In this document: positions 1,090-54,850 of the stretch, in pieces
How positions within the stretch are numbered: the stretch's first letter is position 1
Layout: the number at the start of each line of letters is the position of its first letter
Assembly: GCA_036924085.1 (NCBI GenBank)
Contig: JAVGWX010000011.1
Location: 25,768,476-25,832,475, forward strand
DNA: 64,000 nucleotides
Source of the DNA: Ariolimax columbianus
Taxonomy: Eukaryota > Mollusca > Gastropoda > Stylommatophora > Arionidae
Reading direction: 5' to 3'
Translations under genes and position numbers: made by a program
The notes under the pieces: generated by a model
What the model was told of the DNA's origin: nothing
Database searches by the model: none
Seen by the model: only the letters and a program-made list of their open reading frames with translations

Positions 1090-1554
1090 CCCCCGTTCTC
1101 CGTCCAAACAACCATCCAAGCGTGTATATACAGTCAGATGTTGATTTTGTGTTCTTCTGATCATTCCAGACAGAACACACATTCTCTTTTCTCCCTCATA
1201 CTCCGCACATACGCATTTTTGTGACCCTCTTTCTCTTCATCATTCTGTAGACTGTCCTTGACTGCCCTTATCAACTCAACCCTGTCTCTCGTCATCACCG
1301 AATCGTTCACAACAGCTCATCCCGCCACTGCATCAGCTCTTTCGTTGCCGCATAGTCCTGCATGTTCCGGGCAGTAGGCCCATGTGACACCTTGTATACC
1401 AGAGTCGTTCAGAAGCAACGCCCACTTCCTTCTTAGCATGCACCGTTCTATCTTACGGAGCATGCCCTGCGAGTCAGTATCTCTGCGTGTGTCACCGGTT
1501 GCGTCACCAACCAAGTCAGGGCCGCTATTACCGCCTCAAACTCCATTCTCATAC
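1090..1554 (-). pseudogene. RNase H domain and following segment of a non-LTR retrotransposon, frameshifted
   Basis: The minus strand encodes an RNase H domain of the kind found in I/Jockey-type LINEs, which removes RNA from RNA-DNA hybrids. From 1554 downwards: MRMEFEAVIAALTWL (catalytic Glu region), then TDSQGMLRKIE (second Asp), then CPEHAGLCGNERADA (His, Asn and last Asp region). A one-base shift near 1458-1470 places the first block in a different frame from the other two. A further shift after the GNERAD block leads into RDRVELIRAVKDSLQNDEE and an RRTQNQHLT segment, consistent with the ORF continuing past RNase H. The 5' side stops abruptly at the 10-bp array at 1555. Polymerase and endonuclease parts are missing. 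Calling this a LINE rather than a host RNase H rests on the HAG..GNERAD pattern. Confidence 0.7.
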
Positions 1555-1690
1555 TCGATGTGACTCGATGTGGCTCGATGTGACTCGATGTGGCTCGATG
1601 TGACTCGATGTGACTCGACGTAACTCGATGTGACTCGATGTGACTCGATGTGACTCGATGTGACTCGATGTAACTCGATGTGACTCGATG
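1552..1690. repeat. 10-bp minisatellite (TGACTCGATG), about 14 copies
   Basis: The unit TGACTCGATG with minor variants (TGGCTCGATG, TAACTCGATG) repeats head to tail. It abuts the RNase H fragment. The minus-strand unit TCACATCGAG overlaps the codons just upstream of MRMEFEAV, so the array may have grown from RNase H coding sequence. Confidence 0.9.
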
Positions 1691-1743
1691 GAACCAACCT
1701 CATTGCGCCAACATATATGGTCAGCTCGTTTCATTACTGTATG

Positions 1744-1975
1744 GGGGGACGGCGTGGCCTAGTGGTTAAGTGGCACGGCTCATAAACCGAAGGTGCTGGT
1801 TTCGATCCCCATCACGGTACCAGCCATCACCATGGGGAAGCAAACCCTTAGAAAATGCCGGAGGAAGCAGATCCTTACATAAAATGTATGCCGAAGTCGG
1901 ATGCACTGGGCCAACAGGCGCAAAAATAAAAACTGGCGGAAGAGATAAATATGGCAAACGCAAAAAAAAAAAAAA
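1744..1975 (+). mobile_element. SINE-1, nearly full-length tRNA-derived short element
   Basis: The head has a tRNA-like pol III promoter: A-box TGGCCTAGTGG at 1755-1765 and B-box-like GGTTTCGATCC at 1799-1809. A body follows (GAAAATGCCGGAGGAAGCAG, then GCATGCACTGGGCC-type sequence), ending in a poly(A)-rich tail (CAAAAAAAAAAAAATATA). The same head and body recur at 23025-23178, 43203-43456 and 48000-48250, and the body alone at 38960-39080, all on the other strand, which confirms a dispersed family. SINEs do not encode proteins and depend on LINE enzymes. Confidence 0.88.
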
Positions 1976-2034
1976 TATACTGAAAGTGCCGCCCGCCCAC
2001 AGAGCACGAACTCTGTGGCTCCAGCGACTGCTCC

Positions 2035-2110
2035 AAAATTACTCACTTCACCTGGTCAGGTACCCATTTACAGTAGGGTCGACTGTCAAACTGATTTGAA
2101 CCTGGTACGT
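2035..2110 (-). mobile_element. SINE-4 family fragment (body only)
   Basis: The plus-strand sequence GGTCAGGTACCCATTTACAG followed by AGGGTCGACTG is the reverse complement of the body block GTCGACCC..GTAAATGGGTACC found at 3060-3115, 21995-22025 and 59370-59400. A GGTTCAAATC B-box-like stretch sits at its head side. Confidence 0.55.
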
Positions 2111-2149
2111 TTGTATTGCAAGTCAAGCAGACAATCGCCATGGACTGTT

Positions 2150-2303
2150 TGGACACCCCCACTTCACAGCCACACCTAACACATGTAGAAACATGCTGTG
2201 CTGCAGCAGCCTAGTCAACGAGGTGGGGGATCAAGACAGTGATTCCCAGTGGTGAGTCTAATGAGAAACCTAACATTGCACTATGACCAGGAGGGTCAGT
2301 CTT
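2150..2303 (+). repeat. Element P fragment (middle part)
   Basis: Contains the element P landmarks AAACATGCTGTG, CCTAGTCAACGAGGTGGGG and the following GATC-rich stretch, as in the fuller copies at 29620-29880, 34710-35015 and 39350-40060. Confidence 0.6.
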
Positions 2304-2305
2304 AA

Positions 2306-2935
2306 TTCATCATCATCAGGTACCTTGCCGGTTGGCGTTGGCGATCGTGGACCTCCATCCACTTCTAACACTTATGTCATTCACCAACTCTTTTGTTGAT
2401 TTTCGCCCGTGCCATTCTCTCAGGTTGTCCAACATCTTATCTCTCTGCCTTTCTCTGTCTCCCTTTCCAGCTATATTTTCCATTGGCACAACGTGCTCCG
2501 AATCGTCTCTCCTCATAACATGCCCGAGAAAGGATGATTTGCGTTGTTCTGATCTTTGCAATGAGTTGTCTTTGCGTTTGTGCCTCTTCGAGTACTGTAT
2601 CATTAGTCTTCGTTGGAGTCCAATATGATCCATATATTCTTCTGTAAAACGTTGCTCCAGGAGACCTATCCGCTTGATTGCTGATTGTCCATGATTTACT
2701 GCAATATGTCAGTACTGGTTCATCGTAGCATCCAATGACTTTCTTTCTCAGTTCCAGCGACAAGGTTTTGTTGCACAATATCCCCTTTATGGTATGGAAG
2801 ACCAATATTGCTTGGGCTATTCTGCATTTTATTTCGTGATTGCATTTTCCATCATAATTTATGTGCGGGTCCAGGTTTGTAAACGTATTAACTTCTTCAG
2901 TACCTCACGATATAAGAAATAATGCACTCGCTCCC
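2306..2935 (-). pseudogene. LINE-D 3' fragment, reverse transcriptase C-terminal region
   Basis: Minus-strand frames 2437-2805 and 2316-2633 together cover the end of a non-LTR reverse transcriptase. Order: GKCNHEIKCRIAQA, a thumb-region stretch (LSLELRKKVIGCY), TYCSKSWTISNQ (equivalent of YGSETWTL), FYRRIYG, NDTVLEEAQTQRQL, SSFLGHVMRR, then the terminal segment. The switch between frames at about 2560-2640 shows at least one frameshift. The coding end is followed by (ATG)n on the minus strand (CATCATCATC at 2309), the usual 3' tail. The upstream palm and endonuclease are lost. Related pieces are at 27130-27330 and 50095-50265; the NDxVLEEAQTQ segment is the unit of the 46-bp array at 27326-28685. 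Confidence 0.75.
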
Positions 2936-3205: not shown

Positions 3206-3212
3206 CAATTCG

Positions 3213-3915
3213 AGACAGGGTCAGGTGAATAATACCGGTCAAGGCCTCATCAAACAACAGGTGAAACACACTGATCGAGTCACCACCTCAGACCTGGTAA
3301 AAAAATACTAAGACTCCCATCTCACGACAGGTGAAACATACTGATTAAGACTCCATCTCACAACAGGTGAAACATACTGATTAAGACTCCATCTCACGAC
3401 AGGTGAAACATACTGATTAAGACTCCATCTTACGACAGGTCAAACATGCTGATTAAGACTCCCATCTTACGACAGGTGAAACATACTGATTAAGACTCCA
3501 TCTTACGACAGGTGAAACATGCTGATTAAGACTCCATCTTACGACAGGTGAAACATACTGATTAAGACTCCATCTTACGACAGGTGAAACATGCTGATTA
3601 AGACTCCATCTTACGACAGGTGAAACATACTGATTAAGACTCCATCTTACGACAGGTGAAACATGCTGATTAAGACTCCATCTTACGACAGGTGAAACAT
3701 ACTGATTAAGACTCCATCTTACGACAGGTGAAACATACTCATTAATACCCCCAGCTCATGTCAGGGGCAGGTTAAACATACTGATCAACACCTCGCCTCA
3801 TGGCAGGGTCAGGTGAAGTATACTGATTAAGACCTCGCCTCATATCAGGGGCAGGTTAAACATACTGATCAATACGTCGCCTCATATCAGGGGTAGGTTA
3901 AACATACTGACTAAG
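3213..3915. repeat. Element P 5' region expanded into a 36-bp array, about 13 regular copies plus degenerate ones
   Basis: From about 3300 to 3760 the unit GACAGGTGAAACATACTGAT plus TAAGACTCCATCTTAC repeats with a 36-bp period. The outer copies (3213-3300 and 3760-3915) are longer and more diverged. Each unit carries the AACATACTGA motif that opens element P elsewhere (29640, 34770, 39400, 63800). Confidence 0.9.
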
Positions 3916-6120: not shown

Positions 6121-9100
6121 ATACTCTTACTCACTAACCAACGGACACACCCACTCTCTCACCCACCCACTCCTTCACACACCCACTCCCGCACACACCA
6201 ACTCCATCACACACCCACTCCCTCACACACCCACTCCCTCACACACCCACTCCCTCACACACACACTCCCGCACACACCCACTCCCCCACACACCCACTC
6301 CCTCACACACACACTCTCGCACACACCCACTCCCCCACACACCCACTCCCTCACACACCCACTCCATCACGCACCCACTCCATCACACACCCACTCCCTC
6401 ACACACCCACTCCCTCACACACCCACTCCCTCACACACACACTCCCGCACACACCCACTCCCCAACACACCCACTCCCTCACACACACACTCCCGCATAC
6501 ACCCACTCCATCACACACCCACTCCCTCACACACTCACTCCCTCACACACCCACTCCCTCACACACTCACTCCCGCACACACACTCCCTCACACACACAC
6601 TCCCGCACACACCCACTCCATCACACACTCACTCCGTCACACACCCACTCTCGCACACAACCACTCCATTATACACCCACTCCCTCACACACCCACTCTC
6701 TCACACACTCACTCCGTCACACACCCACTCCATCACACAGTCACTCACGCACACACCCACTCCATCACACACTCACTCACGCACACACCCACTCCATCAC
6801 ACACCCACTCCCTCACACACTCATTCCGTCACACACCCACTCCATCACACACCCACTCCCTCACACACCCACTCCATCACACACCAACTCCATCACACAC
6901 CCACTCCCTCACACACACACTCCCGCACACACCCACTCCCCAACACACCCACTCCCTCACACACACACTCCCGCATACACCCACTCCATCACACACCCAC
7001 TCCCTCACACACTCACTCCCTCACACACCCACTCCCTCACACACTCACTCCCGCACACACACACTCCCTCACACACACACTCCCGCACACACCCACTCCA
7101 TCACACACTCACTCCGTCACACACCCACTCTCGCACACAACCACTCCATTATACACCCACTCCCTCACACACCCACTCTCTCACACACTCACTCCGTCAC
7201 ACACCCACTCCATCACACAGTCACTCACGCACACACCCACTCCATCACACACTCACTCACGCACACACCCACTCCATCACACACCCACTCCCTCACACAC
7301 TCATTCCGTCACACACCCACTCCATCACACACTCACTCCCTCACACACCCACTCCATCACACACCAACTCCATCACACACCCACTCCCTCATACACTTTC
7401 TCACTCCCTCACACACCTACTCCCACACACACCCACTCCCTCACATACCCACTCCCTCACACACACACACACCCACTCCCTCACACACTCACTCTCTCCC
7501 TCACACACCCCCTCCCTCACATACCCACTCCCTCACACACCCACTCCCTCACACACACACTCCCGCACACACCCACTCCCCAACACACCCACTCCCTCAC
7601 ACACCCACTCCCTCACACACACACTCCCGCACACACCCACTCCCCAACACACCCACTCCCTCACACACACACTCCCGCATACACCCACTCCATCACACAC
7701 CCACTCCCTCACACACTCACTCCCTCACACACCCACTCCCTCACACACTCACTCCCGCACACACACACTCCCTCACACACACACTCCCGCACACACCCAC
7801 TCCATCACACACTCACTCCGTCACACACCCACTCTCGCACACAACCACTCTATTACACACCCACTCCCTCACACACCCACTCTCTCACACACTCACTCCG
7901 TCACACACCCACTCCATCACACAGTCATTCACGCACACACCCACTCCATCACACACTCACTCACGCACACACCCACTCCATCACACACCCACTCCCTCAC
8001 ACACTCATTCCGTCACACACCCACTCCATCACACACCCACTCCATCACACATCCACTCCATCACACACCCACTCCCTCACACACCCACTCCATCACACAC
8101 CAACTCCATCACACACCCACTCCCTCATACACTTTCTCACTCCCTCACATACCTACTCCCTCACACACCCACTCCCTCACATACCCACTCCCTCACACAC
8201 ACACCCACTCCCTCACACACTCACTCACTACCTCACACACCCCCTCCCTCACATACCCACTCCCTCACACACCCACTCCCTCACACACCCACTCCCTCAC
8301 ACACCCACTCCCTCACACACCGTCTCCCTTATACACTCACTCCGTCCCTCACACACCCACTTCCTCACACACCCACTCCCTCACACACCCACTCTCTCAC
8401 ACACCCACTCCCTCACACACCCACTCCCGCACACACCCATTCCTTCACACCCACTCCCTCACACACCCACTCTCTCACACACCCACTCCCTCACACACCC
8501 ATTAACTCACATACCCACTCCCTCACACACACACCCACTCCCTCACACACTCACTCACTCCTTCACACACCCACTCCCTTACACACCCACTCCCTCACAC
8601 ACCCACTCCCTCACACACCCACTCCCTCACACACCCACTCTCTCACACACCCACTCCCTCACACACCCACTCCAGCACACACCCATTCCCTCACACACCC
8701 ACTCCCTCACACACCCACTCTCTCACACACCCACTCCCTCACACACCCATTAACTCACATACCCACTCCCTCACACACACACCCACTCCCTCACACACTC
8801 ACTCACTCCTTCACACACCCACTCCCTCACACACCCACTCCCTCACACACCCACTCCCTCACACACCCACTCCCTCACACACCTACTCCCTCACACACTC
8901 ACTCCCTCACACACCGACTCCCTCATACACTCACTCAGTCCCTCACACACCCACTCCCTCACACACCCACTCTCTCACACACCCACTCCCTCACACACCC
9001 ATTCCCTCACATACCCACTCCCTCACACACCCACTCCTTCACACATTCACTCACTCCCTCACACACCCACTCCCTCAACACCCATTACCTCACACACCCA

Positions 9101-12100
9101 ATCCCTCACACACCCACTCCCTCACACACCCACTCTCTCACACACCCACTCCCTCACACACCCACTCCCTCACACACCCACTCCCCCACACACCCACTCC
9201 CTCACACACCCACTCCCTCACACACCCACTCCCTCACACACCCACTCCCTCACACACCCACTCCCTCACACACCCACTCCCTCACACACCTACTCCCTCA
9301 CACACTCACTCCCTCACACACCGACTCCCTCATACACTCACTCAGTCCCTCACACACCCACTCCCTCACACACCCACTCTCTCACACACCCACTCCCTCA
9401 CACACCCATTCCCTCAGATACCCACTCCCTCACACACCCACTCCTTCACACATTCACTCACTCCCTCACACACCCACTCCCTCAACACCCATTACCTCAC
9501 ACACCCAATCCCTCACACACCCACTCCCTCACACACCCACTCTCTCACACACCCACTCCCTCACACACCCACTCCCTCACACACCCACTCCACCACACAC
9601 ACACCCACTCCCTCACACACCCACTCCCTCACACACACACTCCCGCACACACCCACTCCATCACACACTCACTCCGTCACACACCCACTCTCGCACACAA
9701 CCACTCCATTACACACCCACTCCCTCACACACCCACTCTCTCACACACTCACTCCGTCACACACCCACTCCATCACACAGTCACTCACGCACACACCCAC
9801 TCCATCACACACTCACTCACGCACACACCCACTCCATCACACACCCACTCCCTCACACACTCATTCCGTCACACACCCACTCCATCACACACCCACTCCA
9901 TCACACATCCACTCCATCACACACCCACTCCCTCACACACCCACTCCATCACACACCAACTCCATCACACACCCACTCCCTCATACACTTTCTCACTCCC
10001 TCACACAGCTACTCCCACACACACCCACTTCCTCACATACCCACTCCCTCACACACACACACACCCACTCCCTCACACACTCACTCTCTCCCTCACACAC
10101 CCCCTCCCTCACATACCCACTCCCTCACACACCCACTCCCTCACACACACACTCCCGCACACACCCACTCCCCCACACACCCACTCCCTCACACACCCAC
10201 TCCCTCACACACCCACTCCATCACACACCCACTCCCTCACACACCCACTCCCTCACACACCCACTCCCTCACACACACACTCCCGCACACACCCACTCCC
10301 CAACACACCCACTCCCTCACACACACACTCCCGCATACACCCACTCCATCACACACTCACTCCGTCACACACCCACTCTCGCACACAACCACTCCATTAC
10401 ACACCCACTCCCTCACACACCCACTCTCTCACACACTCACTCCGTCACACACCCACTCCATCACACAGTCACTCAAGCACACACCCACTCCATCACACAC
10501 TCACTCACGCACACACCCACTCCATCACACACCCACTCCCTCACACACTCATTCCGTCACACACCCACTCCATCACACACCCACTCCATCACACATCCAC
10601 TCCATCACACACCCACTCCCTCACACACCCACTCCATCACACACCAACTCCATCACACACCCACTCCCTCATACACTTTCTCACTCCCTCACATACCTAC
10701 TCCCTCACACACCCACTCCCTCACATACCCACTCCCTCACACACACACCCACTCCCTCACACACTCACTCACTACCTCACACACCCCCTCCCTCACATAC
10801 CCACTCCCTCACACACCCACTCCCTCACACACCCACTCCCTCACACACCCACTCCCTCACACACCGACTCCCTTATACACTCACTCCGTCCCTCACACAC
10901 CCACTCCCTCACACACCCACTCCCTCACACACCCACTCTCTCACACACCCACTCCCTCACACACCCACTCCCGCACACACCCATTCCCTCACACACCCAC
11001 TCCCTCACACACCCACTCTCTCACACACCGACTCCCTCACACACCCATTAACTCACATACCCACTCCCTCACACACACACCCACTCCCTCACACACTCAC
11101 TCACTCCTTCACACACCCACTCCCTCACACACCCACTCCCTCACACACCCACTCCCTCACACACCCACTCCCTCACACACCTACTCCCTCACACACTCAC
11201 TCCCTCACACACCGACTCCCTCATACACTCACTCAGTCCCTCACACACCCACTCCCTCACACACCCACTCTCTCACACACCCACTCCCCCACACACCCAT
11301 TCCCTCACATACCCACTCCCTCACACACCCACTCCATCACACATTCACTCACTCCCTCACACACCCACTCCCTCAACACCCATTACCTCACACACCCAAT
11401 CCCTCACACACCCACTCCCTCACACACCCACTCCCTCACACACCCACTCCCCCACACACCCACTCCCTCACACACCCACTCCCTCACACACCCACTCCCT
11501 CACACACCCACTCCCTCACACACCCACTCCCTCACACACCTACTCCCTCACACACTCACTCCCTCACACACCGACTCCCTCATACACTCACTCAGTCCCT
11601 CACACACCCACTCCCTCACACACCCACTCTCTCACACACCCACTCCCTCACACACCCATTCCCTCACATACCCACTCCCTCACACACCCACTCCATCACA
11701 CATTCACTCACTCCCTCACACACCCACTCCCTCAACACCCATTACCTCACACACCCAATCCCTCACACACCCACTCCCTCACACACCCACTCTCTCACAC
11801 ACCCACTCCTTCACACACCCACTCTCCCACACACCCACTCTCACACACCCACTCCCTCACACACCCACTCCTTCACACACCCACTCTCCCACACACCCAC
11901 TCTCACACACCCACTCCCTCACACACCCACTCCTTCACACACCTACTCCCTCACACACTCACTCCCTCACACACCCACTCCCTCACACACCCACTCCCTC
12001 ACACACCCACTCCCTCACACACCCACTCCTTCACACACCTACTCCCTCACACACTCACTCCCTCACACACCCACTCCCTCACACACCCACTCCTTCACAC

Positions 12101-12225
12101 ACCCACTCCCTCACACACCCACTCCCTCACACACCCACTCCCTCACACACCCACTCCTTCACACACCCACTCCCCCACACACCCACTCCCACACACCCAC
12201 TCTCTCACCCATTCAACCATTCAGT
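6121..12225. repeat. Giant 16-bp satellite (CACACACCCACTCCCT), about 6.1 kb with higher-order repeats
   Basis: The unit CACACACCCACTCCCT and variants (CCATC, CCGTC, CCCGC, CTCTC) fill about 6 kb. Longer blocks recur: 6661-6840 is repeated base for base at 7141-7320, a 480-bp offset equal to 30 units, and related blocks recur near 7784, 9641 and 10331. Other markers (ATTAACTCACATACC near 8501, 8749 and 11047) show further segmental duplication. The plus strand is almost only C, A and T. No gene is contained in it. Confidence 0.95.
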
Positions 12226-14255: not shown

Positions 14256-14995
14256 TCAAAGCCTGGTCTGGTGGCGCATCTTGGGCTGGGTCTTGAAGTT
14301 TAGCTTGGCAATGACAAGTCGATGGTCGGTCCAGTATTCTGCACCACACAAGCTCTTCGTTATCATAGCATCCGCTCGATCCCTACGTCTGATGATAATG
14401 TAGTCAATGAGGTGCCAGTGGCGGGACCTTGGGTGCATCCACGTGGTTCTATTTCGGATCGGAAGTTGGACTACTGTGTTTGTAACCAGTAGTTCATCTG
14501 CGGCACATGCCCTCAGAAGGAGCAGTCCGTTACTGTTGCATTTTCCGATAACATGTCTGCCAATGGCCCCCTCCCAGGCTGTATGGCCTGTGCCAACCCT
14601 AGCGTTAAAATCTCCGAGGATAACCAATTTGTCAGATTTGGGGCCTGTAGCGATGAGCGCCTCAAGGTTCTCATAAAACTTATCTTTGGTCTTGTCGGGG
14701 TTTGTCATTGTGGGTGCGTATGCACTGAACGTGGCATGGCGTCCTCCTATTAGAGGGAGACAGTGTAATGAGACGGCCATTGATTCCTTTGCGCATGCTT
14801 GTAAGCTTGTCGACCTTGTTGGTCTTGATGGCAAAGCCAACTCCAGCTTCACGGCGTTCTTCATCACTGCGGCCGCTCCAGAAGAAATTATACCCGGCAC
14901 CTTCCTCTGTGATCTGCCCTTCCTCTTCCAGTCGTGTCTCGCTCCGGGCGGCTATGCAGATGATGTTTCTAACCAGTTCCCTGACGATCATTTAA
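14256..14995 (-). pseudogene. LINE-A endonuclease domain, frameshifted
   Basis: This domain nicks the target DNA to prime reverse transcription. Two overlapping minus frames carry it: 14991-14680 with SETRLEEEGQ and RREAGVGFAIK, then 14900-14256 with RHATFSAYAPTM, LVILGDFNARVG (catalytic Asp and Asn), WMHPRSRHWHLIDYIIIRRR and YWTDHRLVIAKL (Asp-His pair). The join needs a frameshift near 14760. All core motifs of the exonuclease-endonuclease-phosphatase fold after the first strand are visible, so this is the best preserved part of the copy. The start is arbitrary because the 5' end is truncated near 14995. Confidence 0.85.
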
Positions 14996-16539: not shown

Positions 16540-16845
16540 CCTTCTCTTCGTCGTTTGTTCTCAAACTCCCACTTCCAAGACCTGAACGTTCTTAAACTCC
16601 CGCTACCAAACCCTGAACATTCTCAAACTCCCACTTCCAAGCCCTGAACGTCCACAAACCACCAATACCAAGCCCTGAACGTCTGCAAATTCCCGCTACC
16701 AAGTCTTGAACGTCCCCAAACTCCCGCTACCAAGCCCTGAACGTTCTCAAACTCCCGCTATCAAGCCCTGAACGTTCTCTCACTCCCACTACCAAGCCCA
16801 GAACATTCTCAAACTCCCGCTTCCAAGCCCTGAAAAGGGCTTTGG
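16540..16845 (-). repeat. Element X, 31-bp array (B-type unit), about 9 copies
   Basis: The unit AAGCCCTGAACGTTCTCAAA plus CTCCCGCTACC repeats every 31 bp. It is the reverse complement of the unit at 22215-22935. A single unexpanded unit is seen at 20410-20440. Confidence 0.9.
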
Positions 16846-16978
16846 AGGGAGCAGAATGTAGTCCGGAGAACGGGTTGCGTTGTGTCGTAGTTTACAGCTT
16901 GACTGCGATATTTGCGCTGTTCGGTCCGACAGATCCGATTTCAACCAAACACTTTAGGTACTGGGTTAGCCTTCCCTC
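16845..16978 (-). repeat. Element X core
   Basis: Carries GTAGTCCGGAGAACGG, GTCGTAGTTTACAGCTTGAC and TACTGGGTTAGCCTTCCCTC. The same sequence in the other orientation lies at 59750-59890, and in part at 20345-20400. It links the two arrays on its sides. Confidence 0.8.
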
Positions 16979-17770
16979 TTCGACCCCTTCTCCTTAGCCA
17001 GTCTGCTCTCTTTGACCCCTTATCCTTAGCCAGTCTGCCCTCTTCGACCCCTTCTCCTTAGCCAGTCTGCCCTCTTCGACCCCTTAGCCAGTCTGCCCTA
17101 TTCGACCCCTTCTTCTTAGCCAGTCTGCCCTCTTCGACCCCTTCCCCTTAGCCAGTCTGCCCTCTTCGATCCCTTCTCCTTAGCCAGTCTGCCCTACTCG
17201 ACCTCTTCTCCTTAGCCAGTCTGCCCTCTTCGACACCTTCTCCTTAGCCAGTCTGCCCTCTTCGACCCCTTCCCCTTAGCCAGTCTGCCCTATTCGACCC
17301 CTTCTCCTTAGCCAGTCTGCCCTCTTCGACCCCTTCTCCTTAGCCAGTCTGCCCTCTTCGACCCCTTCTCCTTAGCCAGTCTGCCCTCTTCGACCCCTTA
17401 GCCAGTCTGCCCTATTCGACCCCTTCTTCTTAGCCAGTCTGCCCTCTTCGACCCCTTCCCCTTAGCCAGTCTGCCCTCTTCGACCCCTTCTCCTTAGCCA
17501 GTCTGCCCTCTTTGACCCCTTCTCCTTAGCCAGTCTGCCCTCTACGGCCCCTTCTCCTTAGCCAGTCTGCCCTCTTTGACCCCTTCTCCTTAGCCAGTCT
17601 GCCCTCTTCGACCCCTTCCCCTTAGCCAGTCTGCCCTCTTCGACCCCTTCCCCTTAGCCAGTCTGCCCTCTTTGACCCCTTCTCCTTAGCCAGTCTGCCC
17701 TCTACGGCCCCTTCTCCTTAGCCAGTCTGCCCTCTTCGACCCGTTCTCCTTAGCCAGTCTGCCCTGTTGC
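16978..17770 (-). repeat. Element X, 32-bp array (A-type unit), about 25 copies
   Basis: The unit CTTCGACCCCTTCTCCTTAG plus CCAGTCTGCCCT repeats every 32 bp, with some 22-bp short versions lacking CTTCTCCTTA. The same sequence is present once, unexpanded, at 59728-59765 (GGCAGACTGGCTAAGGAAGA). Confidence 0.93.
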
Positions 17771-19569: not shown

Positions 19570-20222
19570 TGTTGGTTGGTTGGTTGGTTTTGATCCAGGA
19601 GCGTCGGCTCATGCCTTTTGCCCAATGCCATATAGTGGTATCTGTAAGTGTTTGTGAGCTGGTGTTTAATTCCGTACAAAGTGTTCCATTTGTCTGTCCT
19701 CGGAGGAAGAAGCACTTTCCTAACACTGGCAAGCGCCGGACATTCAAAAAGATGATGTTCAACATTTTCACAGGGATGTGTGCACAGCCAGCACTCTGGA
19801 GTATGTTCTGGTTGGATTCTGTTCAAGTGGCTGTTAAGTTGTATGTGTTGAGTGGGAAGTCGGAAAATGGTGCTTTGGCCTTTCCTTTTCAGGAGGTTGA
19901 TGTTGTCTTTGGGTTTTGGGATGACCATTTGTTTGTAGATTTCTTTCCCAGTATTTCCCATCTATTCAGCCAGACCTCTTTGTTCGTCCGCAGTCTTCAG
20001 TAGTTCTTTGGCTGTCTTTAGGGTGGTTGGTGCGTATTGTTGTTCTTGATTTGATTCCTTCTTAGCCAGTCTGTCTACCTTTTCATTGCCAGGTGTATTT
20101 GAGTCACCAGGAATCCATTGTATAGCTATTCTGACTTCACGGGATGTGAGCAGTTAGTTGGCATCTAGAGATATTTGGGCAAGTTCAGGCTTACAATGAC
20201 CACCGTCTTCCAGAGTTTGAAG
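19570..20222 (-). pseudogene. LINE-C 3' fragment: RNase H end and zinc-binding C-terminus
   Basis: Minus strand from 20210: a partial RNase H (REVRIAIQWIPGDSNTPGN, then EKVDRLAKK with the last catalytic Asp; the usual His before SN is Asp here). Next comes a linker and minus frame 19961-19560 with STIFRLPTQHIQLNSHLNRI, CWLCTHPCENVEHHLFEC (zinc-binding CxxC..H..C type) and the terminal region. A stop lies between RNase H and the linker near 19960. The ORF ends in (CCAA)n on the minus strand. The TQHIQLNSHLNR segment is present once here; in the second LINE-C copy (48665-49760) it is amplified about 20-fold. Lies inside the purine-rich tract. Confidence 0.82.
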
Positions 20223-20331: not shown

Positions 20332-20450
20332 TATGCACTGTCACGCTGTAAACAACGACACTACGCATTCCGTTCTCTGGACTACATCCTGCTACCTGCA
20401 AAGCCATTTTAAGGGCTTGATAGCGGGAGATTAAGAATGAACAAAGAAGT
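20332..20450 (+). repeat. Element X copy with a single B-type unit
   Basis: ACGCTGTAAACAACGACAC, CATTCCGTTCTCTGGACTAC and ATCCTGCTACCTGCAAAGCC lead into one unit, GGGCTTGATAGCGGGAGATT. This is the unexpanded state of the 31-bp arrays at 16540 and 22215. Confidence 0.75.
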
Positions 20451-33218: not shown

Positions 33219-33622
33219 CCCGTTGTCGTGATGGAGATACAAAGTTCCCGTTGTCGTGTTGGAGATGCCAAGTTCCCATTGTCATGATGGAGATGCCAAG
33301 TTCCCGTTGTCGTGATGGAGATTCCAAGTTGCTGTTGTCATGATGGAGATACAAAGTTCCTGTTTTCGTGTTGGATATGCCAAGTTCCCGTTGTCATGAT
33401 GGAGATGCCAAGTTTCCGTTGTCATGATGGAGATGCCAAGTTCCCGTTGTCATGATGGAGATGCCAAGTTTCCGTTGTCATGATGGAGATGCGAAGTTCC
33501 CGTTGTCATGATGGAGATGCGAAGTTCCCATTGTCATGATGGAGATGCCAAGTTCCCGTTGTCATGATGGAGATGCCATGTTCCCGTTGTCGTGATGGGG
33601 ATGCCAAGTTCCCGTTGTCCAT
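33200..33622. repeat. 28-bp minisatellite derived from the mariner HHDN segment, about 15 copies
   Basis: The unit CATGATGGAGATGCCAAGTT plus CCCGTTGT repeats every 28 bp with GTCGTG and CGAAG variants. On the minus strand each unit encodes HHDN in one frame, and the leftmost unit is continuous with the HHDNAHAH motif of the left arm. Confidence 0.9.
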
Positions 33623-35075: not shown

Positions 35076-35259
35076 AACGTTATCTCAACCTATCATTACT
35101 GAGGCCTACGAACGTGGCAAATGAAACAGTTGGAAAAGAAAATTGATGCCTTTAAAATGTGAAAATATAGTATAATGGAGCAAATGTCGAAATAATATAA
35201 GAAAACAAATCCTTAATAAATTAGGGGCGCTAAAATATTAATTAGCTTTCATTCCACTT

Positions 35260-36480
35260 ATGTTATTAAGGAGCTTAAGTGGTCTATCCACCACATGTAC
35301 AATATTCTCGCTTTCAATCAAACCCCAAAACACCAAATTAAGTCTAAATGGCAAATTCCTGCAGCCAAACGACAACCCAGACTATCTGGGAGTCACATTT
35401 GATCGGCGCATGACATGGAAAAGTCAGATCGAGAGAAACCGAATGAGAGCCAGAGAAAGAATGGCAATCATGAGGAAACGTGCTGGCACAAGCTGGGGAG
35501 CAGACGAAAGTATACTAAAGAAACTGTACACTGGAAGAGTGAGACCAGTTTTCGAGTATGGCATTGCGGCATGGACAACAGCAGCAAAGGCGAACTTCGA
35601 TAAAGTTAGCAAACTTCAAAACCAAGCCATGAGAGTTATAACAGGAGGCATGAAGTCAACGCCAATTGTAGAACTTGAAAAGATTACAAAACTGCAATCC
35701 ATGACCGATAGAAGAGACTGCAGAGCCCAGCTGCAGTCAGAGAAACTCCGAAGACTGACTGACCATCAAATGCACCAGAGACTAAACAATTTGGGAAATG
35801 GCAAACTAAAGCGGAGAAACTTTGCAGAAATAGCCAAAGCAAAGATGCACGAAGATCCCATAAACGCACTAACAACACCAAAGCCCATCACTACTGTACG
35901 AAAACCTACCTGGAGGCAGGATATATTTCCAGAGGTGGTAGAAAATATACCAGGTATTGGAAACAAGAACAGCCAGACTGAAAGAGAAAGGAGAGATTCT
36001 ACCCTAAGCTTTATATCGAAAAACTACCCAAGTATGGACTGGACCCATGCATACACCGACGGTTCTGTAACAAACACTACACAGAACGGAGGGGCAGGAG
36101 CATTCCTGAACCTACCAAATGGCAGAAAAATAACACTGTCATTCGCTACTGGTAAGTACACAAGCAATTTCAGAGCGGAGGCAGAGGCACTGAGGGCGGC
36201 AGTGGAAGAAATGGTGACACATAACAAAAATGAAAGCCATATGGTCCTGCTTACAGATGCTCTGGCCGTAGTCACAGCGCTAGAAAGCCAGAAAAACACT
36301 GAGCTTAATGACTTAAGAGCAGTACTCTGTCAACTATGCCAGCAGTCCGCACCAAAAAGGGTAGTGGTACAGTGGGTCCCATCACACTGCAACATCCAAG
36401 ACAACGAGGAGGCTGACAGACTGGCAAAAGAAGGTGCAAGACTACCACAAACAGATACTAGTATGACATACGAAGAGTGA
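35260..36480 (+). pseudogene. LINE-B polymerase thumb and RNase H domain
   Basis: A 406-codon open frame. Residues 42-57 hold YLGVTFDRRMTWKSQI, the block after the polymerase active site; 97-105 and 115-130 hold FEYGIAAW and SKLQNQAMRVITG, typical of the thumb. RNase H occupies about 258-390: AYTDGSV (Asp267), FRAEAEAL (Glu307), LLTDALAVV (Asp333), WVPSHCNI (His376) and NEEADRLAKEG (Asp386), so all four acidic catalytic positions and the histidine are present. The frame ends at TGA 36478-36480, but the same frame continues as KRLIKARYMTKWETEHTGYT into the zinc-binding part, so this stop is a mutation, not the natural end. The Met at 35260 is internal; the true start lies upstream in lost sequence. 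Confidence 0.88.
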
Positions 36481-37560: not shown

Positions 37561-37627
37561 ATAAGACATTAAATGATATACCATCTTGCTGGAAACAATC
37601 ATCGAACAATCATCGTCATCATCATCT

Positions 37628-38870
37628 GGCTGATCAGTTCTAAGACTGGTTGTAAGGTTGTATGAGCGTGCCTCTATTTGACCCTATCCTCTGGTTGATC
37701 AGTTCTAAGACTGGCTGTGAAGTTTTCTGAGCGTGCCTCTATTTGACCCTATCCTCTGGTTGATCAGTTCTAAGACTGTCTGTAAAGTTCTCTGAGCGTG
37801 CCTCTATTTAACCCTATCCTCTGGTTGATCAGTTCTAAGACTGGCTGTAAAGTTCTCTGAGCGTGCCTCTATTTAACCCTATCCTCTGGTTGATCAGTTC
37901 TAAGACTGGCTGTAAAGTTGTCTGAGCGTGCCTCTATTTAACCCTATCCTCTGGTTGATCAAATTCTAAGACTGGCTGTAAAGTTGTCTGAGCGTGCCTC
38001 TATTTAATCCTATCCTCTGGATGATCAGTTCTAAGACTTTTTGTAAGGTTGTATGAGCGTGGCTCTATTTGACACTATCCTCTGGTTGATCAGTTCTAAC
38101 ACTGGCTGTGAAGTTCTCTGAGCGTGCCTCTATTTGACCCTATCCTCTGGTTGATCAGTTCTAAGACTGGCTGTAAAGTTGTATGAGCGTGCCTCTATTT
38201 AACCCTATCCTCTGGTTGATCAATTCTAAGACTGGCTGTAAAGTTGTCTGAGCGTGGCTCTATTTAACTCTATCCTCTGGTTGATCAGTTCTAAGACTTT
38301 TTGTAAGGTTGTATGAGCGTGGCTCTATTTGACACTATCCTCTGGTTGATCAGTTCTAAGACTGGCTGTGAAGTTCTCTGAGCGTGCCTCTATTTGACCC
38401 TATCCTCTGGTTGATCAGTTCTAAGACTGGCTGTAAAGTTGTATGAGCGTGCCTCTATTTAACCCTATCCTCTGGTTGATCAATTCTAAGACTGGCTGTA
38501 AAGTTGTCTGAGTGTGGCTCTATTTAACCCTATCCTCTGGTTGATCAGTTCTAAGACTGGCCTTAAAGTTCTCTGAGCGTGCCTCTATTTAACCCTATCC
38601 TCTGGTTGATCAATTCTAAGACTGGCTGTAAAGTTCTCTGAGCGTGCCTCTATTTAACCATATCCTCTGGTTGATCAGTTCTAAGACTGGTTGTAAGGTT
38701 GTCTGATCGTGTCTTTATTTAGCATCTTTCCTCTGGTTGATCAGTTCTAAGACTGGTTGTAAGATTGTCTGAGCGTGTCTTCATTTACCTATATCCTCAA
38801 GTTGATTATATCTCAGACTGGTTGTTATTTATGTCTGATCGTCTCTCTATTTAACCTCATTTCTGGATAG
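37628..38870 (-). repeat. 65-bp minisatellite derived from the LINE-H 3' terminus, about 19 copies
   Basis: The unit contains GGTTGATCAGTTCTAAGACT, GGCTGTAAAGTTCTCTGAGC and GTGCCTCTATTTAACCCTAT; starts at 37693 and 37758 show the 65-bp period. The reverse complement encodes a diverged DRVKWRD-type stretch and matches the array at 41875-42345. Groups of variants (GGCTCTATTTGACAC near 38060 and 38320) recur, suggesting block duplication of about 260 bp. Confidence 0.92.
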
Positions 38871-39349: not shown

Positions 39350-39790
39350 AGTCGCTAGTCAGGTCAGGCACAACATACAGACCAGAACGTATCGTCAGGG
39401 TCAGGCACAACATACTGACCAGAACGTATCGTCAGGGTCAGGCACAACATACTGACCAGAACGTAGAGTCAGGGTCAGGCACAACATACTGACCAGAACG
39501 TAGAGTCAGGGTCAGGCACAACATACTGACCAGAACGTAGCGTCACTGTCAGGAGTAACATACTGACCAGAACGTAGAGTCAGGGTCAGACAAAACATGC
39601 TGACCAGAACGTAGCGTCATGGTCAGGAGTAACATACTGACCAGAACGTAGAGTCAGGGTCAGACACAACATACTGACCAGAACGTAGAGTCAGGGTCAG
39701 ACACAACATACTGACCAGAACGTAGAGTCAGGGTCAGACACAACATACTGACCAGAACGTAGAGTCAGGGTCAGACACAATATGCTGACC
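39350..39790 (+). repeat. Element P 5' region expanded into a 37-bp array, about 12 copies
   Basis: The unit GTCAGGGTCAGACACAACAT plus ACTGACCAGAACGTAGA repeats every 37 bp and leads directly into the element P body. Confidence 0.92.
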
Positions 39791-40060
39791 AAGACCACTA
39801 TCTCTTTTCCATTTAGCGTTCAATGGAAACAGGCTGTTTTCAAGGCTGTGTGGCGGAAAGTCGTGGATCGACATGATCCCCGTAGTAATGAACCTATAGC
39901 AGATGAAGCCAAGCATAGCACAACCGACTGGAGGACTGTTCCCACCTTCATCAGCACGCTCACAATGTCTGGGAAGCTACTACAACCAGCCACTTAACTG
40001 CCTTTTCAGGGCGCACACAAGAGTAAATATACTCATTGTGGGCATTAAAAACACAAAAAA
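39790..40060 (+). repeat. Element P body
   Basis: CAATGGAAACAGGCTGTTTT, GAAGCCAAGCATAGCACAAC, GACTGGAGGACTG, CAGCACGCTCACAATGT, GGGAAGCTACTACAACCAGC, CACTTAACTGCC and GCACACAAGAGTAAATATAC in the order seen at 34800-35010. Confidence 0.78.
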
Positions 40061-41198: not shown

Positions 41199-41920
41199 CA
41201 GTGGGAAGATCAGTAGCAACGTTGTTAATGCTCATTGAACACTTTAATAGCACAGCCAAAGAGTTTGGCATGAAAGTAAACACATCGAAGACAGAGATTT
41301 TGATAATACCCAAGGAACATAGGCATATGAATATGATCATCAATGGAGAAATTATCAAACAAGTACATCTTTACGTATCTGGGGCAAACTATCAAAGAAG
41401 ATGCCCGCAATGAGATAAACATTAAGACAAGGATTGCAAAGACAAAAAAGCTTCAGAACATACATTGTTAACCTCAAAGAATATCAGGATAGAACTGAGG
41501 GAAAGAATAATCGCCAATTTCCACTGTATCAGGCTGAAACAAGGACGCAAAAAAAAAAAAAAAAAAAAAAACAACCAATGAAAAAAGATTGGAAGCGTTT
41601 GAAATGACGTGCTACCGTAGAAATGGTAAGAGGAAGTTGGACAGAAATAAGATCTAATGTATTCACTGATACGGGCTCACAAAGGCGAATATTGCACAGG
41701 ATATGGAAACGTCGATTAAGTTGACTGGATCACAATATGAGACATGAAGTTCTACAGAAGATACTAGAGGGCAGGATTCAAGGGAAGAGAGGACCGGGTG
41801 GACCAAGGCTCACCTTTACATCTCACTCATGTACGAACATTAAAGTACTTTTGCTCAAATGAAAAGAACTGGAGATGATTGCATTAAGTGGACAGACATG
41901 CTCAGGCAACCTTACAACCA
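41199..41920 (+). pseudogene. LINE-H reverse transcriptase, right part
   Basis: Frame 41201-41413 reads VGRSVATLLMLIEHFNSTAK, EFGMKVNTSKTEILIIPKEH and RHMNMIINGEIIKQV; after one shift, YLGQTIKEDARNEINIKTRI (the YLG motif) continues. Farther on are the A-run at 41549-41571, EKRLEAFEMTCYRRNGKRK, MRHEVLQKILEGRIQGKRGP, and the final KRTGDDCIKWTDMLRQPYNQ. Stops at 41412, 41473 and 41655 show decay. Confidence 0.8.
41549..41571 (+). repeat. Poly(A) run of 23 inside LINE-H coding sequence
   Basis: It lies between the ETRT-type block and the EKRLEAFEM block of the polymerase, where related LINEs have only one or two lysine codons. See the homologous run at 42654-42692. Confidence 0.9.
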
Positions 41921-42345
41921 GTCTTAGGACTGATCAACTAAAGGATAGGGTCTAATGGAGGGACATTCTCAAACAACCTTGCAACCAGTCTCAGGACTGA
42001 TCAACCAGAGGATAGGGTTAAGTGGACATACATTCTCAGACAACCTTTCAACCAGTCTTTGGACTGATCAACCAGAGGATAGGGTCAAATGGAGAGACAT
42101 ACTCAGTCAACCTTACAACCAGTATTAGGACTGATCAACCAGAGGATAGGGTCAAATGGAGAGACATGCCCAAACAACCTTACAACCAGTCTCAGGACTG
42201 ATCAACCAGAGGATAGGGTCAAATGGAGAGACATGCCCAAACAACCTTACAACCAGTCTCAGGACTGATCAACCAGAGGATAGGGTCAAATGGAGAGACA
42301 TGCCCAAACAACCTTACAACCAGTCTCAGGACTGGTCAATCAGAT
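41875..42345 (+). repeat. 67-bp minisatellite derived from the LINE-H 3' terminus, 7 copies
   Basis: The unit contains GTCAAATGGAGAGACATGCC, CAAACAACCTTACAACCAGT and CTCAGGACTGATCAACCAGA; starts at 42151, 42218 and 42285 show the 67-bp period. The first copy is the natural end of the LINE-H ORF (KWTDMLRQPYNQS, stop). The (ATG)n tail follows the last copy at 42346-42362. Confidence 0.93.
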
Positions 42346-44339: not shown

Positions 44340-44945
44340 TGGTCTGTAGGGAGGGATATTAAACCCCAGCTTAGTTATGAGAGGCAGCGTAACCTAGGGG
44401 TGACACGTCCAGTTCACAACCCCAACCTACCCGGTTCGAATTCCACCGTGTACAGTTTCAAGTTTCTGGGGATTGATATTAAACCCCAGCTTAGTATGAG
44501 AGACAGCGTAACCTAGGGGTGACACGTCCAGTTCACAACCCCAACCTACCCGGTTCGAATTCCACCGTGTACAGTTTCAAGTTTCTGGGGATTGATATTA
44601 AACCCCAGCTTAGTATGAGAGACAGCGTAACCTAGGGGTGACACGTCCAGTTCACAACCCCAACCTACCCGGTTCGAATTCCACCGTGTACAGTTTCAAG
44701 TTTCTGGGGATTGATATTAAACCCCAGCTTAGTATGAGAGACAGCGTAACCTAGGGGTGACACGTCCAGTTCACAACCCCAACCTACCCGGTTCGAATTC
44801 CACCGTGTACAGTTTAATTTTTCTCTGTGCGATCGCTCCTTCCGGTATGGAAAGTACCGTATTGCACACGTACCAAGAAACATATAACAGCCACATAGGC
44901 TGGCGGTTGTGAGAAGCGAGGTTCTGTCAAGGACATGCTACCTAC
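44340..44945 (+). mobile_element. SINE-2 with four tandem tRNA-like heads
   Basis: A 119-bp unit is repeated four times; each holds an A-box-like GTAACCTAGGGGTGAC and a perfect B-box GGTTCGAATTCC (starts 44433, 44552, 44671, 44790). The unit aligns with the head of SINE-2 at 24616-24520 (GCGTGGCCTAGG, GGTTCGATTCC, GTGTCCAGTTT). After the fourth head the normal SINE-2 body follows once (CCGGTATGGAAAGTACCGTA, GCGGTTGTGAGAAGCGAGGT, CTGTCAAGGACATGCTACC). Confidence 0.82.
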
Positions 44946-48664: not shown

Positions 48665-49760
48665 TGTTGTTGTTATTGTTGTTACGGATCAAGCAGCATC
48701 CAGGCTTTCGTCCTTCGGCCCAATGCCATGTAATGGTATCTGCACGTGTATAATAGCTGTTGTATAGTTACATACAAAGTGTTCCATGTATCTGACCACG
48801 GAGGAAGAAGCATTTTCCTAAAATCATCTTAAAGAGATGATGATCAACCGTCTCATAAGGGTGTGTACACAGCTGGCACTCAGGAGTATGTTGTGGTTGG
48901 ATTCTGTTCAGGTGTTTGTTTAGTGGGATGTGTTGGGTTCTGTTCAGGTGTTTGTTTAGTGGGATGTGTTGGGTTCTGTTCAGGTGTTTGTTTAGTGGGA
49001 TGTGTTGGGTTCTGTTCAGGTGTTTGTTTAGTGGGATGTTTTGAGTTCTGTTCAGGTGTTTGTTTAGTGGGATGTGTTGGGTTCTGTTCAGGTGTTTGTT
49101 TAGTGGGATGTGTTGGGTTCTGTTCAGGTGTTTGTTTAGTGGGATGTGTTGGGTTCTGTTCAGGTGTTTGTTTAGTGGGATGTGTTGGGTTCTGTTCAGG
49201 TGTTTGTTTAGTGGGATCTGTTGGGTTCTGTTCAGGTGTTTGTTTAGTGGGATGTGTTGGATTCTGTTCAGGTGTTTGTTTAGTGGGATGTGTTGGGTTC
49301 TGTTCAGGTGTTTGTTTAGTGGGATGTGTTGGGTTCTGTTCAGGTGTTTGTTTAGTGGGATGTGTTGGGTTCTGTTCAGGTGTTTGTTTAGTGGGATGTG
49401 TTGGGTTCTGTTCAGGTGTTTGTTTAGTGGGATGTTTTGAGTTCTGTTCAGGTGTTTGTTTAGTGGGATGTGTTGGGTTCTGTTCAGGTGTTTGTTTAGT
49501 GGGATGTTTTGGGTTCTGTTCAGGTGTTTGTTTAGTGGGATGTGTTGGGTTCTGTTCAGGTGTTTGTTTAGTGGGATGTGTTGGGTTCTGTTCAGGTGTT
49601 TGTTTAGTGGGATGTGTTGGGTTCTCAGTCGGAAAATGATGCTCTGATCCTTCCTTGTGAGTTGATTTACCCTGTCATTTGGACTGGGGCTTGCCATATG
49701 TTTATAGACCTTCCTTCCCGTTTTCCCCATTGCCCATCTGTTCAGCTGTTTCTTTGTTTG
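48665..49760 (-). pseudogene. LINE-C C-terminal region with an in-frame 12-codon array
   Basis: Minus frame 49823-48768 (351 codons): a linker with GKTGRKVYKHMASPSPNDRV and QSIIFRLR, then TQHIPLNKHLNR repeated about 20 times, then IQPQHTPECQLCTHPYETVD and HHLFK, where the zinc-binding C-terminus is cut short. In LINE-C at 19570-20222 the same linker and zinc motif flank one TQHIQLNSHLNR. The expansion keeps the frame because the unit is 36 bp. The 3' end carries an (AAC)n-type tail near 48665. The RNase H domain is absent; the upstream neighbour is LINE-N. Confidence 0.85.
48894..49625 (-). repeat. 36-bp minisatellite inside LINE-C, about 20 copies
   Basis: GTTCTGTTCAGGTGTTTGTT plus TAGTGGGATGTGTTGG repeats every 36 bp (for example 48901, 48937) with rare single-base variants (GATGTTTTGA, GATCTGTTGG). 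The homogeneity implies recent growth or conversion. Confidence 0.95.
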
Positions 49761-52748: not shown

Positions 52749-52751
52749 TCT

Positions 52752-52832
52752 ATATTATTTTAACTTTTCTTCTTGTTATTGGTATAGAAGGCTATGCATA
52801 GTGTGTATACAACCAATAATGTATGCTACTAA
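52752..52832 (-). repeat. LINE-L 3' UTR fragment
   Basis: The reverse complement (ACATTATTGGTTGTATACAC, ACTATGCATAGCCTTCTATA) matches the sequence after the LINE-L stop at 58280-58345. Confidence 0.5.
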
Positions 52833-53445
52833 GATCTATAACCGAACATGGACATTATTTCAATAGTTCATCCATGATGACACATTTTGGAAAAGCTACC
52901 CCAACACGTGATCCCAGCCGACATTATCTGCAATGAGACTTGCTTTACAGTTTTGACCAGACGGGATCTGGTGCAGTCACACTTACAACAGATCATGTCA
53001 AGCCCAACCAGCTGGCGTGTACGTTGGTAGGCAGCTGCAATGACGCCAGTGGTATGCCTGCGAACCTATAATGACAAATAAACGCTCCAGACCCAGTGTC
53101 TAATACCACTCTTGACACTTCTAGGTGTGGGTGTAAATTTATGAAGTTATTGATTGAGAATTTGTGTATCCTGGGGTCATTCGAAAACAAGGACGCCTAG
53201 TGGTTGTGGCGGGCGGCAGGGCGGATCGTTTGTGTGGGGGGCGGCAGGGCGGATCGTTTGTGTGGCGTAGCGGTTATAGGTTGTTCATTTAGTCGTTGTC
53301 TGCTAACATTTCGCTCTGTTGGTCTGCTACAATTCGTGTTTCTTTACAACTAATTGTATCCTTTTAAAAAAAATAAAGATACAAAGACGTACACCGCATT
53401 TTGTAAACTCGATCATCCGTACACAACCCCATTGAGCCCATTACG
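52833..53445. other. No recognisable gene; short 39-bp duplication at 53205-53285
   Basis: GGGCGGCAGGGCGGATCGTT plus TGTGTGG occurs twice in tandem. Otherwise nothing is supported. Confidence 0.4.
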
Positions 53446-53449
53446 GGGA

Positions 53450-53670
53450 CTCAGTGGTTTCGAGGTAAGGTGTTCGCCCGAAATACCGTAGGTCGCGTGT
53501 TCAAATCACGTGGATCTTCTGGTAGAAATTCCTCTGATCTCTGGGTAGTGAGATCGGACCCCCGTGTACGGTGTCGAGCACGTTAAAAACCCCTTGGCAG
53601 TTGGAGATCGAAAAGAGTAGGCTTAACGGCTGCTGCCCGGACAAAATTCACATAAAACCCTTGTTATTTG
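53450..53670 (+). mobile_element. SINE-3 copy, best head
   Basis: GGGACTCAGTGGTTTCGAGG (A-box region), GTCGCGTGTTCAAATCACGT (B-box GTTCAAATC), GATCTCTGGGTAGTGAGATC, GCACGTTAAAAACCCCTTGG, CAGTTGGAGATCG, CGGCTGCTGCCCGGAC. Confidence 0.82.
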
Positions 53671-53684
53671 TACCTTTCCTTAGG

Positions 53685-53795
53685 TGGTTTGTAAAGAGCA
53701 GCTATCTATGACGCCTAATTGGCTGCGGGTCCACTTAGCTCTAGTGTTCGAGTCTACTTAAATAGACTCGCACATCTGTAAAAACCACTCTCAAA
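53685..53795 (-). repeat. Element Q fragment
   Basis: GGTGGTTTGTAAAGAGCAGC, CTCTAGTGTTCGAGTCTACT and AAATAGACTCGCACATC match 18640-18720. Confidence 0.65.
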
Positions 53796-53865
53796 GAAAC
53801 TGGTTGTATTCATATTTTGTAGAGTCTTTTAAACCAGTATAAAGTTGTTAAGTTAAGTGTCGTTA
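53795..53865 (+). repeat. LINE-L 3' UTR fragment
   Basis: AAACTGGTTGTATTCATATT, TTTTAAACCAGTATAAAGTT and GTTAAGTTAAGT match 58290-58348 after the LINE-L ORF. Confidence 0.65.
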
Positions 53866-53964
53866 TTCCTCACGTACTATCTCTTGTGTTTTTATATGTC
53901 TCACTCTGTGTTTCAATGAATATTAAACTGTTTATAACTTGTATTTGACTGCTTTAATACCATC

Positions 53965-54850
53965 ATCATCATCATGTAGCACGTCCTTGACAGATCGTCG
54001 CTCAAATCACAGCCGTTCGATAGGAATATCGGTCAGAGGTCAGTATACCCGCCTGGTGCATGCTCATGTTTAGGGTGTCCTTGATATCTCGATCAGAGGT
54101 CAGTATACCCGCCTGGTGCATGCTCATGTTTAGGGTGTCCTTGATATCTCGATCAGAGGTCAGTATACCCGCCTGGTGCATGCTCATGTTTAGGGTGTCC
54201 TTGATATCTCGATCAGAGGTCAGTATACCCGCCTGGTGCATGCTCATGTTTAGGGTGTCCTTGATGTCTCGATCAGAGGTCAGTATACCCGCCTGGTGTA
54301 TGCTCAAGTTTAGGGTGTCCTTGATGTCTTGTGTCTGTCCACACCTTGGTCAGTCTCTTCCTTGTCTTCCTAGAACAATGCCGCCCAGAACTACTTTTTC
54401 CAGTCTGGCATGGCGCTTGATGTCGCCGAAAAACCCTAGTTTCCGAGACATTACGTGGTTTATAAGCCAGTTCTCTTTGCCACTTCGATTTTGCAGGATG
54501 GTTTTATGTGCTATTTTCTTTATCCAAGGTATTTTGAGAATTCTCTTGTGGCATTTTGTCAGGAAAGCCCTGATCCTCTTTCTCAATATTTGTGTGATGG
54601 TCCATGTCTTGCATCCGTACACTGCCACCTGGAATATGCATGTCCTTAGGATCTTCAATTGTAATTCTTTGTTAGTATTGTGTTACACATTTCGCATACT
54701 ATTCAGTTTCTGCATCGTTACGGGCACGCGTCCCCTTATTTCCCTTACACAGTCCCCATCGTATTGTTATTAAAGAGGCAAGGTATTCAAAGTAATCCAC
54801 GTGTTCAATTTCATCATTACCAATAGTGATTTCATATAATTTAAATGAAG
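53965..54850 (-). pseudogene. LINE-M 3' portion with an in-frame 20-codon array
   Basis: Minus strand from 54850: YMKSLLVMMKLNTWITLNTL (decayed EYLGS region), QYDGDCVREIRGRVPVTMQK, then frame 54658-54350 with KILRTCIFQVAVYGCKTWTI, RAFLTKCHKRILKIPWIKK, KENWLINHVMSRKLGFFGDI and KRHARLEKVVLGGIVLGRQG. Then frame 54307-54002 has DIKDTLNMSMHQAGILTSDR in tandem, about five times. This 20-residue block is where other LINEs carry the single W-DNIK-WTG..-DR segment. The ORF end and an (ATG)n tail (CATCATCATC at 53966) follow. Relative: 1-390. Confidence 0.82.
54045..54330 (-). repeat. 60-bp minisatellite inside LINE-M, about 4.7 copies
   Basis: TCAGAGGTCAGTATACCCGC, CTGGTGCATGCTCATGTTTA and GGGTGTCCTTGATATCTCGA repeat with an exact 60-bp period and almost no differences. 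Confidence 0.95.

Follow-up and report, generated by a model that had tools for sequence, protein, structure and literature searches.

The DNA analyzed here is a 64-kb stretch of contig C11 (hereafter, the window) from the genome of the slug Ariolimax columbianus, whose assembly comprises 2.29 Gb in 401 contigs. Among the 120 best of 8000 matches, COX1 from contig C401 is most similar to a Deroceras protein (92% identity along the full query), with other land snails and slugs next, which marks the organism as a stylommatophoran. Minisatellites are frequent in the window, and a first-pass annotation had read the units of many of them as pieces of transposons, among them several long interspersed nuclear elements (LINEs; labeled LINE-C, LINE-D, LINE-H and LINE-M), and had proposed that this genome repeatedly converts transposon segments into tandem arrays. 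When arrays were located in the window with Tandem Repeats Finder (TRF), the named arrays were recovered with starts no more than 16 bp from the positions first given for them. Two of these, at 37621-38856 (minus strand; 19 copies of a 65-bp unit) and 41889-42344 (plus strand; 6.8 copies of a 67-bp unit, then an (ATG)n tail), represent one segment on opposite strands, the 3'-terminal segment of LINE-H.

Unit number at the 3' end of LINE-H

The beginnings of minisatellites are poorly known. LINE-H provides, within a single genome, 2888 first-look candidate places that share a common ancestral sequence, with unit numbers from one up in the copies read, so that the first duplication, its junctions and subsequent growth can be counted. 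A query taken from the array found 2592 candidates; the 40 of these that were scored gave 110 matches, spread over many chromosomes. The array-selected set comprises 21 loci chosen because they carry an array, two in the window and 19 elsewhere in the genome. An array-free query, the 339 bases upstream of the 41889 array (41550-41888, plus strand), yielded 40 matches when 40 candidates were scored, the query itself included. For the other 39 copies, the flank-selected set, 361 or 381 bases on the 3' side were read; as the 40 scored are the best of the 2888 candidates, the fractions from this set apply to close relatives of the window copy only.

The period is 67 in 20 of the 21 array-selected loci and 65 at window position 37621, with copy numbers ranging from 6.8 to 47.1. 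Read along the element strand, the unit begins with AGAGGATAGGG and ends with ATCAACC. By eye, element sequence lies on the 5' side in 20 of these loci (L034 is unclear) and an ATG-type tail ends about 12. One frame of the single-unit copies reads YAAMKRTAEDRVKWRDxLRQPY, with a stop inside the unit in all three copies translated, and the unit therefore spans the last codons and a short 3' end. RTE-like LINEs combine a reverse transcriptase of their clade with a short 3' untranslated region and a trinucleotide tail; in LINE-H a reverse transcriptase-like frame is seen upstream by eye, together with the short 3' end and the tail, which makes it a candidate RTE-like element.

The flank-selected copies form a ladder of unit numbers. 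Most (22/39) carry one unit or part of one, several being truncated or internally deleted, while about two units are present in four copies (with a partial second unit in two), three units in three, and at least five units, reaching the end of the piece read, in six. One of the six, L066, is irregular, its first unit being interrupted and a shortened unit giving the rest a period of 59 bp. Of the remaining copies, L052 repeats a 22-bp part of the unit twelve times with 99% identity, and in three no unit was found.

Two LINE-H copies illustrate other changes at this end. As judged by eye, a SINE-like insertion (short interspersed nuclear element) splits the single unit of L054; its tail is A-rich, and a short duplication of the target (AAATGGAGAGACA) accompanies it. 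At the LINE-H end in L062 most of the unit has been lost, leaving CTGCAGACTGATCAACC before the tail, and this deletion is the reverse event.

Homogenization within loci

Units of LINE-H arrays are most alike within a locus. Across the 21 array-selected loci, the nearest neighbor of 328 of 348 units lay in the same locus, compared with about 20, and at most 33, when locus labels were shuffled. A private state common to all units, and absent from 18 single-unit copies, was observed at seven of the 12 multi-unit loci (the flank-selected set without L052 and L066), whereas pseudo-loci gave an expectation of 0.26 and a maximum of 2. Periods are likewise specific to the locus, being 65 at window position 37621, 59 at L066 and 22 at L052. 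The ladder of unit numbers and the clustering of units by locus together indicate that arrays were born and homogenized in place, repeatedly. Among 49 arrays examined for this, 31 had end units that scored lower than their core units (p = 0.008), as expected if exchange homogenizes the middle.

Unexpanded relatives of other arrays

Unexpanded relatives exist for several arrays (LINE-H, element X, LINE-C, LINE-D and element P), as first noted, and for LINE-H, the 32-bp array of element X and LINE-C the array lies within an element copy with unexpanded copies elsewhere. The 32-bp X array (16974-17765, plus strand) occupies a site that five relatives cross with 35-38 bases, approximately one unit; one X copy unexpanded at this site lies at 59669-59893 (minus strand). 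The 31-bp X array sits at the element end at 16557-16834 (plus strand) and recurs at 22214-22926 (minus strand) and, outside the window, in L009 and L021; seven other copies are single-unit and L025 holds part of one, and the window has an X copy unexpanded at this site at 20340-20446 (minus strand). The LINE-C array, 20 copies of a 36-bp unit reading HIPLNKHLNRTQ, lies inside a coding frame at 48896-49625 (minus strand), and the one spanning relative (19740-19930, minus strand) has a gap of 46. Overall, spanning relatives were found at four of 93 array loci, a small sample in which two of the four are self-similar within L027.

LINE-D carries 30 copies of a 46-bp unit (27336-28689, plus strand), with an unexpanded relative at 2573-2609 (minus strand). 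Element P occurs as a 37-bp array at 39357-39791, a degenerate 37-bp array at 63800-63994 and a P-like 36-bp array at 3309-3745, and is unexpanded at 29613-29655, all on the plus strand. X and P are dispersed repeats, and their status as transposons is putative. At the end of the LINE-D array, part of the 46-bp unit has formed a nested 16-bp array (28674-28785, plus strand; TRF and by eye), which resembles the 22-bp array in L052.

Array density in sampled DNA

The window was compared with 19 random 10-kb stretches (190 kb of the 2.29 Gb), giving a combined set of 254 kb; the stretch L014, a single satellite throughout, was excluded from every test and from the density. Counting arrays with a period of at least 10 and at least 2.5 copies, and leaving out low-entropy units, minisatellites make up 31,343 of the 190,000 random bases (16.5%) and 13,071 of the 64,000 window bases (20.4%), at 3.68 and 4.06 arrays per 10 kb, respectively. 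The abundance of minisatellites is thus a genome-wide trait. Periods peak at 20-40 bp and are multiples of three in 27 of 96 arrays, which indicates that the reading frame is not favored.

Array units and dispersed repeats

After masking of the arrays, 10 of the 27 units in the window, each given as 2-4 joined consensus copies, matched another place there (E ≤ 0.01, low-complexity filter off); the count includes the GT-rich 25341 unit, and the 3309 unit, which matched its own flank, is not credited with that hit. In the 254-kb set, 11 of the 19 window arrays with a period of at least 28 had, at E ≤ 1e-3, a relative that lies outside arrays. Shuffled segments almost never match (0/300 at this cut-off and 4/300 at E ≤ 0.01), so the matches of array units are not due to chance. 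Several of the units are pieces of dispersed repeats that also have unexpanded relatives. The LINE-M unit and the two units ascribed to mariner had no nucleotide relative in the seed test, their assignment resting on translated frames read by eye, and at 10 bp the unit at 1553 lacks the length for an assignment.

The seed test compared 60 arrays with a period of at least 28, each represented by five linear segments, with 300 shuffled segments and 1200 random genomic segments of matched lengths; a dispersed relative was sought outside arrays at E ≤ 1e-3 and used as a proxy for transposons. Array segments had such a relative in 44 of 300 cases, compared with 367 of 1200 random genomic segments, and at E ≤ 0.01 the counts were 57/300 and 408/1200. 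The predicted excess of transposon seeds over random sequence of the same length therefore appears only against shuffled segments and disappears against genomic ones. This test, like the flank test described below, detects many-copy families only and uses non-independent segments, for which p values are rough.

As units that have drifted from their source would be missed, array flanks were tested as well. Dispersed relatives were found for 60 of 153 array flanks compared with 319 of 600 random positions. In a second comparison, the flanks of sample arrays had fewer such relatives than random positions (36/111 versus 802/1500; Fisher p = 2e-5), and those of window arrays did not differ (21/39 versus 839/1500; p = 0.87); restriction to young arrays (identity of at least 93%) brought no change (sample, 10/37 flanks; window, 6/10). 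The segment test and the two flank comparisons thus give no support to the idea that arrays arise preferentially in transposons. Claims of transposon-seeded arrays need a genomic control: where a dispersed relative exists for about every second random segment, seeds of this kind are to be expected in many arrays even if the two have no special link.

Origin of the arrays

We consider it probable that minisatellites arise at a high rate throughout the DNA sampled, through duplication in place, growth and local homogenization, and that transposons are not preferred. A segment of roughly 20-120 bp would first be duplicated in place, LINE-H presenting one-, two-, three- and many-unit states at one site. 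The duplicated segment would then grow by slippage or unequal exchange, and the array is homogenized within its locus, as shown by the clustering of units by locus and by locally altered units that fill whole arrays. Transposon copies would be hit no more often than their share of the DNA predicts, and would be conspicuous because the many copies in a family allow one and the same segment to be compared. The 3'-terminal 67 bp of LINE-H, bounded by the last codons and the (ATG)n tail, is a favored segment. The first-pass proposal of repeated conversion accordingly holds to the extent that short segments of dispersed elements, a LINE included, have been expanded in place more than once, and is not supported in so far as it makes transposons a preferred source. 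Among the mechanisms it listed, in-place slippage, with unequal exchange, fits best, and template switching during reverse transcription is a possible source of the first duplication.

Short direct repeats at the seed account for some births only. The start of the LINE-H unit, CAGAGGAT, resembles CAGATGAT at the tail; junction similarity averaged 5.08 compared with 3.25 in controls, and 6 of 12 single-unit copies fell in the top 5% of their local controls. These shared CAGAGGAT and CAGATGAT motifs at the ends of the segment probably set its register. Three of the five unexpanded P copies tested hold an imperfect repeat 37 bp apart. The one LINE-H copy (0/1) and the X32 copies (0/5) gave no signal in the test of whole sequences, and for LINE-D the direct-repeat tests were negative.

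A number of observations tell against this account of how the arrays arose. The whole-sequence test was passed by P only (3/5 copies); the junction test found no direct repeat at X31 (0/5), LINE-C (0/1) or P (0/5), and was positive in only two of five X32 copies. Diverged ends occur in two thirds of arrays, not in all. Five of the 12 multi-unit LINE-H loci have no private shared state, and at seven low-copy loci identity within loci (0.883) is nearly equal to that between loci (0.867), so that older or inherited dimers are likely among the low-copy loci. In addition, window arrays taken alone match dispersed relatives slightly more often than controls (34% versus 30%) and present no deficit.

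Some of these features would be expected if the arrays were a built-in part of the mobile element that each insertion inherits from its source copies. SVA and LAVA are retroelements of this type, composite retrotransposons containing a variable number of tandem repeats. Such inheritance would explain the 67-bp register common to 20 of the 21 LINE-H array loci, the presence of the 31-bp X unit at four places and the low-copy LINE-H loci with no private state. Unlike the array of SVA and LAVA, the LINE-H array is not a fixed part of its element, given that 22 of the 39 flank-selected copies are single-unit or partial; moreover, most units have their nearest neighbor in their own locus, and in one copy the array is of another kind, with a 22-bp period. 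We therefore regard built-in arrays as unlikely. Another route to the first duplication would be a jump during target-primed reverse transcription, in which the end of the complementary DNA (cDNA) at CAGAGGAT would move back to CAGATGAT in the tail and recopy the 3' segment, with growth following later. The LINE-H array does adjoin the tail at the 3' end of the element, the near-match between the two motifs lies at the right distance, and a single insertion event could also yield private states; the internal arrays (LINE-C, LINE-D and X32) and those outside dispersed repeats nevertheless need another process, and shared private states imply some duplication of units that were already mutated. 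These points make the jump a decidedly improbable source of the first duplication.

Amplification as extrachromosomal or rolling circles followed by re-insertion, which the first-pass annotation had also listed, would produce homogeneous arrays, here of up to 47 units, and place the same unit in several locations. It fits poorly because LINE-H arrays run directly into the 5' part of their own element (20/21 by eye, about 12 of the 21 with a clear tail as well), and the X32 array occupies the site of one unit; we find this origin very unlikely. A bolder version of the cDNA jump, which we offer as speculation and think unlikely, is that duplication recurs at the 3' end of LINE-H, where the number of units can be re-rolled with each insertion by a jump between CAGAGGAT and the first tail motif CAGATGAT, the retroelement itself in this manner seeding very many independent minisatellites in the same register.

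Comparison with known systems

Minisatellites derived from transposable elements (TEs) are already known. In humans they account for 23% of minisatellites and satellites and 0.32% of the genome; AluS and LTR12 contain hot segments, growth is by local duplication, a minority of the arrays have flanking direct repeats, and an established mechanism could be assigned to only 6% of those that are TE-derived (Ahmed and Liang, 2012; PMC3389668). In the slug, 11 of 19 window arrays have units with a dispersed relative, and arrays likewise lie inside transposon copies and include hot segments, with growth probably by local duplication and direct repeats apparently confined to some copies. Two differences stand out, in that minisatellites of any origin make up 16.5% of random DNA here, compared with the 0.32% that is TE-derived in humans, and in that one LINE end displays a ladder from one unit up (PMC3389668). 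In Tetris, a foldback DNA transposon with TIR-220 arrays, internal repeats seeded satellite arrays of kilobase size (PMC4079207); as there, tandem arrays start from a small part of a mobile element, although those described here are short and mostly local. Reviews include PMC6947457 and PMC9659126.

For the related slug Deroceras laeve, running TRF on the masked genome added 28.39% tandem repeats beyond interspersed ones; the passages available from that paper do not discuss the origin of the arrays, and the word 'minisatellite' is absent from its main text (PMC12506671). The available passages of the Arion vulgaris genome paper mention TRF and make no mention of minisatellites (PMC9392753). 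Among the matches listed from the open-licence literature, no paper describes transposon-seeded arrays in land snails or slugs, which is not proof of absence.

Other arrays and frames

The window contains several further arrays. SINE-2 carries 3.9 copies of a 119-bp unit (44355-44815, plus strand), with a 47-bp match at 24530-24576. The LINE-M array (54029-54329, minus strand; 60-bp unit, five copies) corresponds by eye to the C-terminal part of a LINE frame. Next to a 28-bp array at 33193-33619 (minus strand) the flank looks by eye like a mariner transposase around HDNA, and a 31-bp array at 33857-34102 (plus strand) resembles by eye a mariner C-terminus (RWEKCVESQG) in the opposite orientation. 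The two mariner-like fragments here, 33006-33156 and 33656-33803, are approximately 75% alike and oppositely oriented, each with its own array beside it. The 10-bp array at 1553-1690 (minus strand), whose seed is not assignable, adjoins sequence that on one flank is RNase H-like by eye. Another array, at 6145-12208, extends over 6 kb with 374 copies of a 16-bp unit (ACACACCCACTCCCTC) and has one frame open for up to 2057 codons; judging from the totals, it was apparently dropped from the density figure by the entropy filter.

Seven window proteins were compared with Pfam. A 412-codon open frame at 35242-36480 contains an RNase H domain above the Pfam cut-off and is 40-62% like reverse transcriptases, many of them unnamed and snail proteins among them. 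The frame at 14256-14951 matched endonuclease families below the curated cut-off, the frame of the LINE-M array (54024-54773) had a sub-threshold match, and the other four proteins had no Pfam match. Rfam and tRNA scans of the window found nothing.

The random DNA also yielded observations of its own. L014 (1-10000; C2:85000001-85010000), the 10-kb stretch set aside above, consists wholly of a 173-bp satellite in 58 copies with a GC content of 27%, possibly centromeric. Arrays at L009:530-931, L013:2329-3498 and L013:5859-6443 have units that are protein-like by eye, including reverse transcriptase-like units of 50 and 55 bp and a 37-bp unit resembling a gag-like CCHC zinc knuckle.

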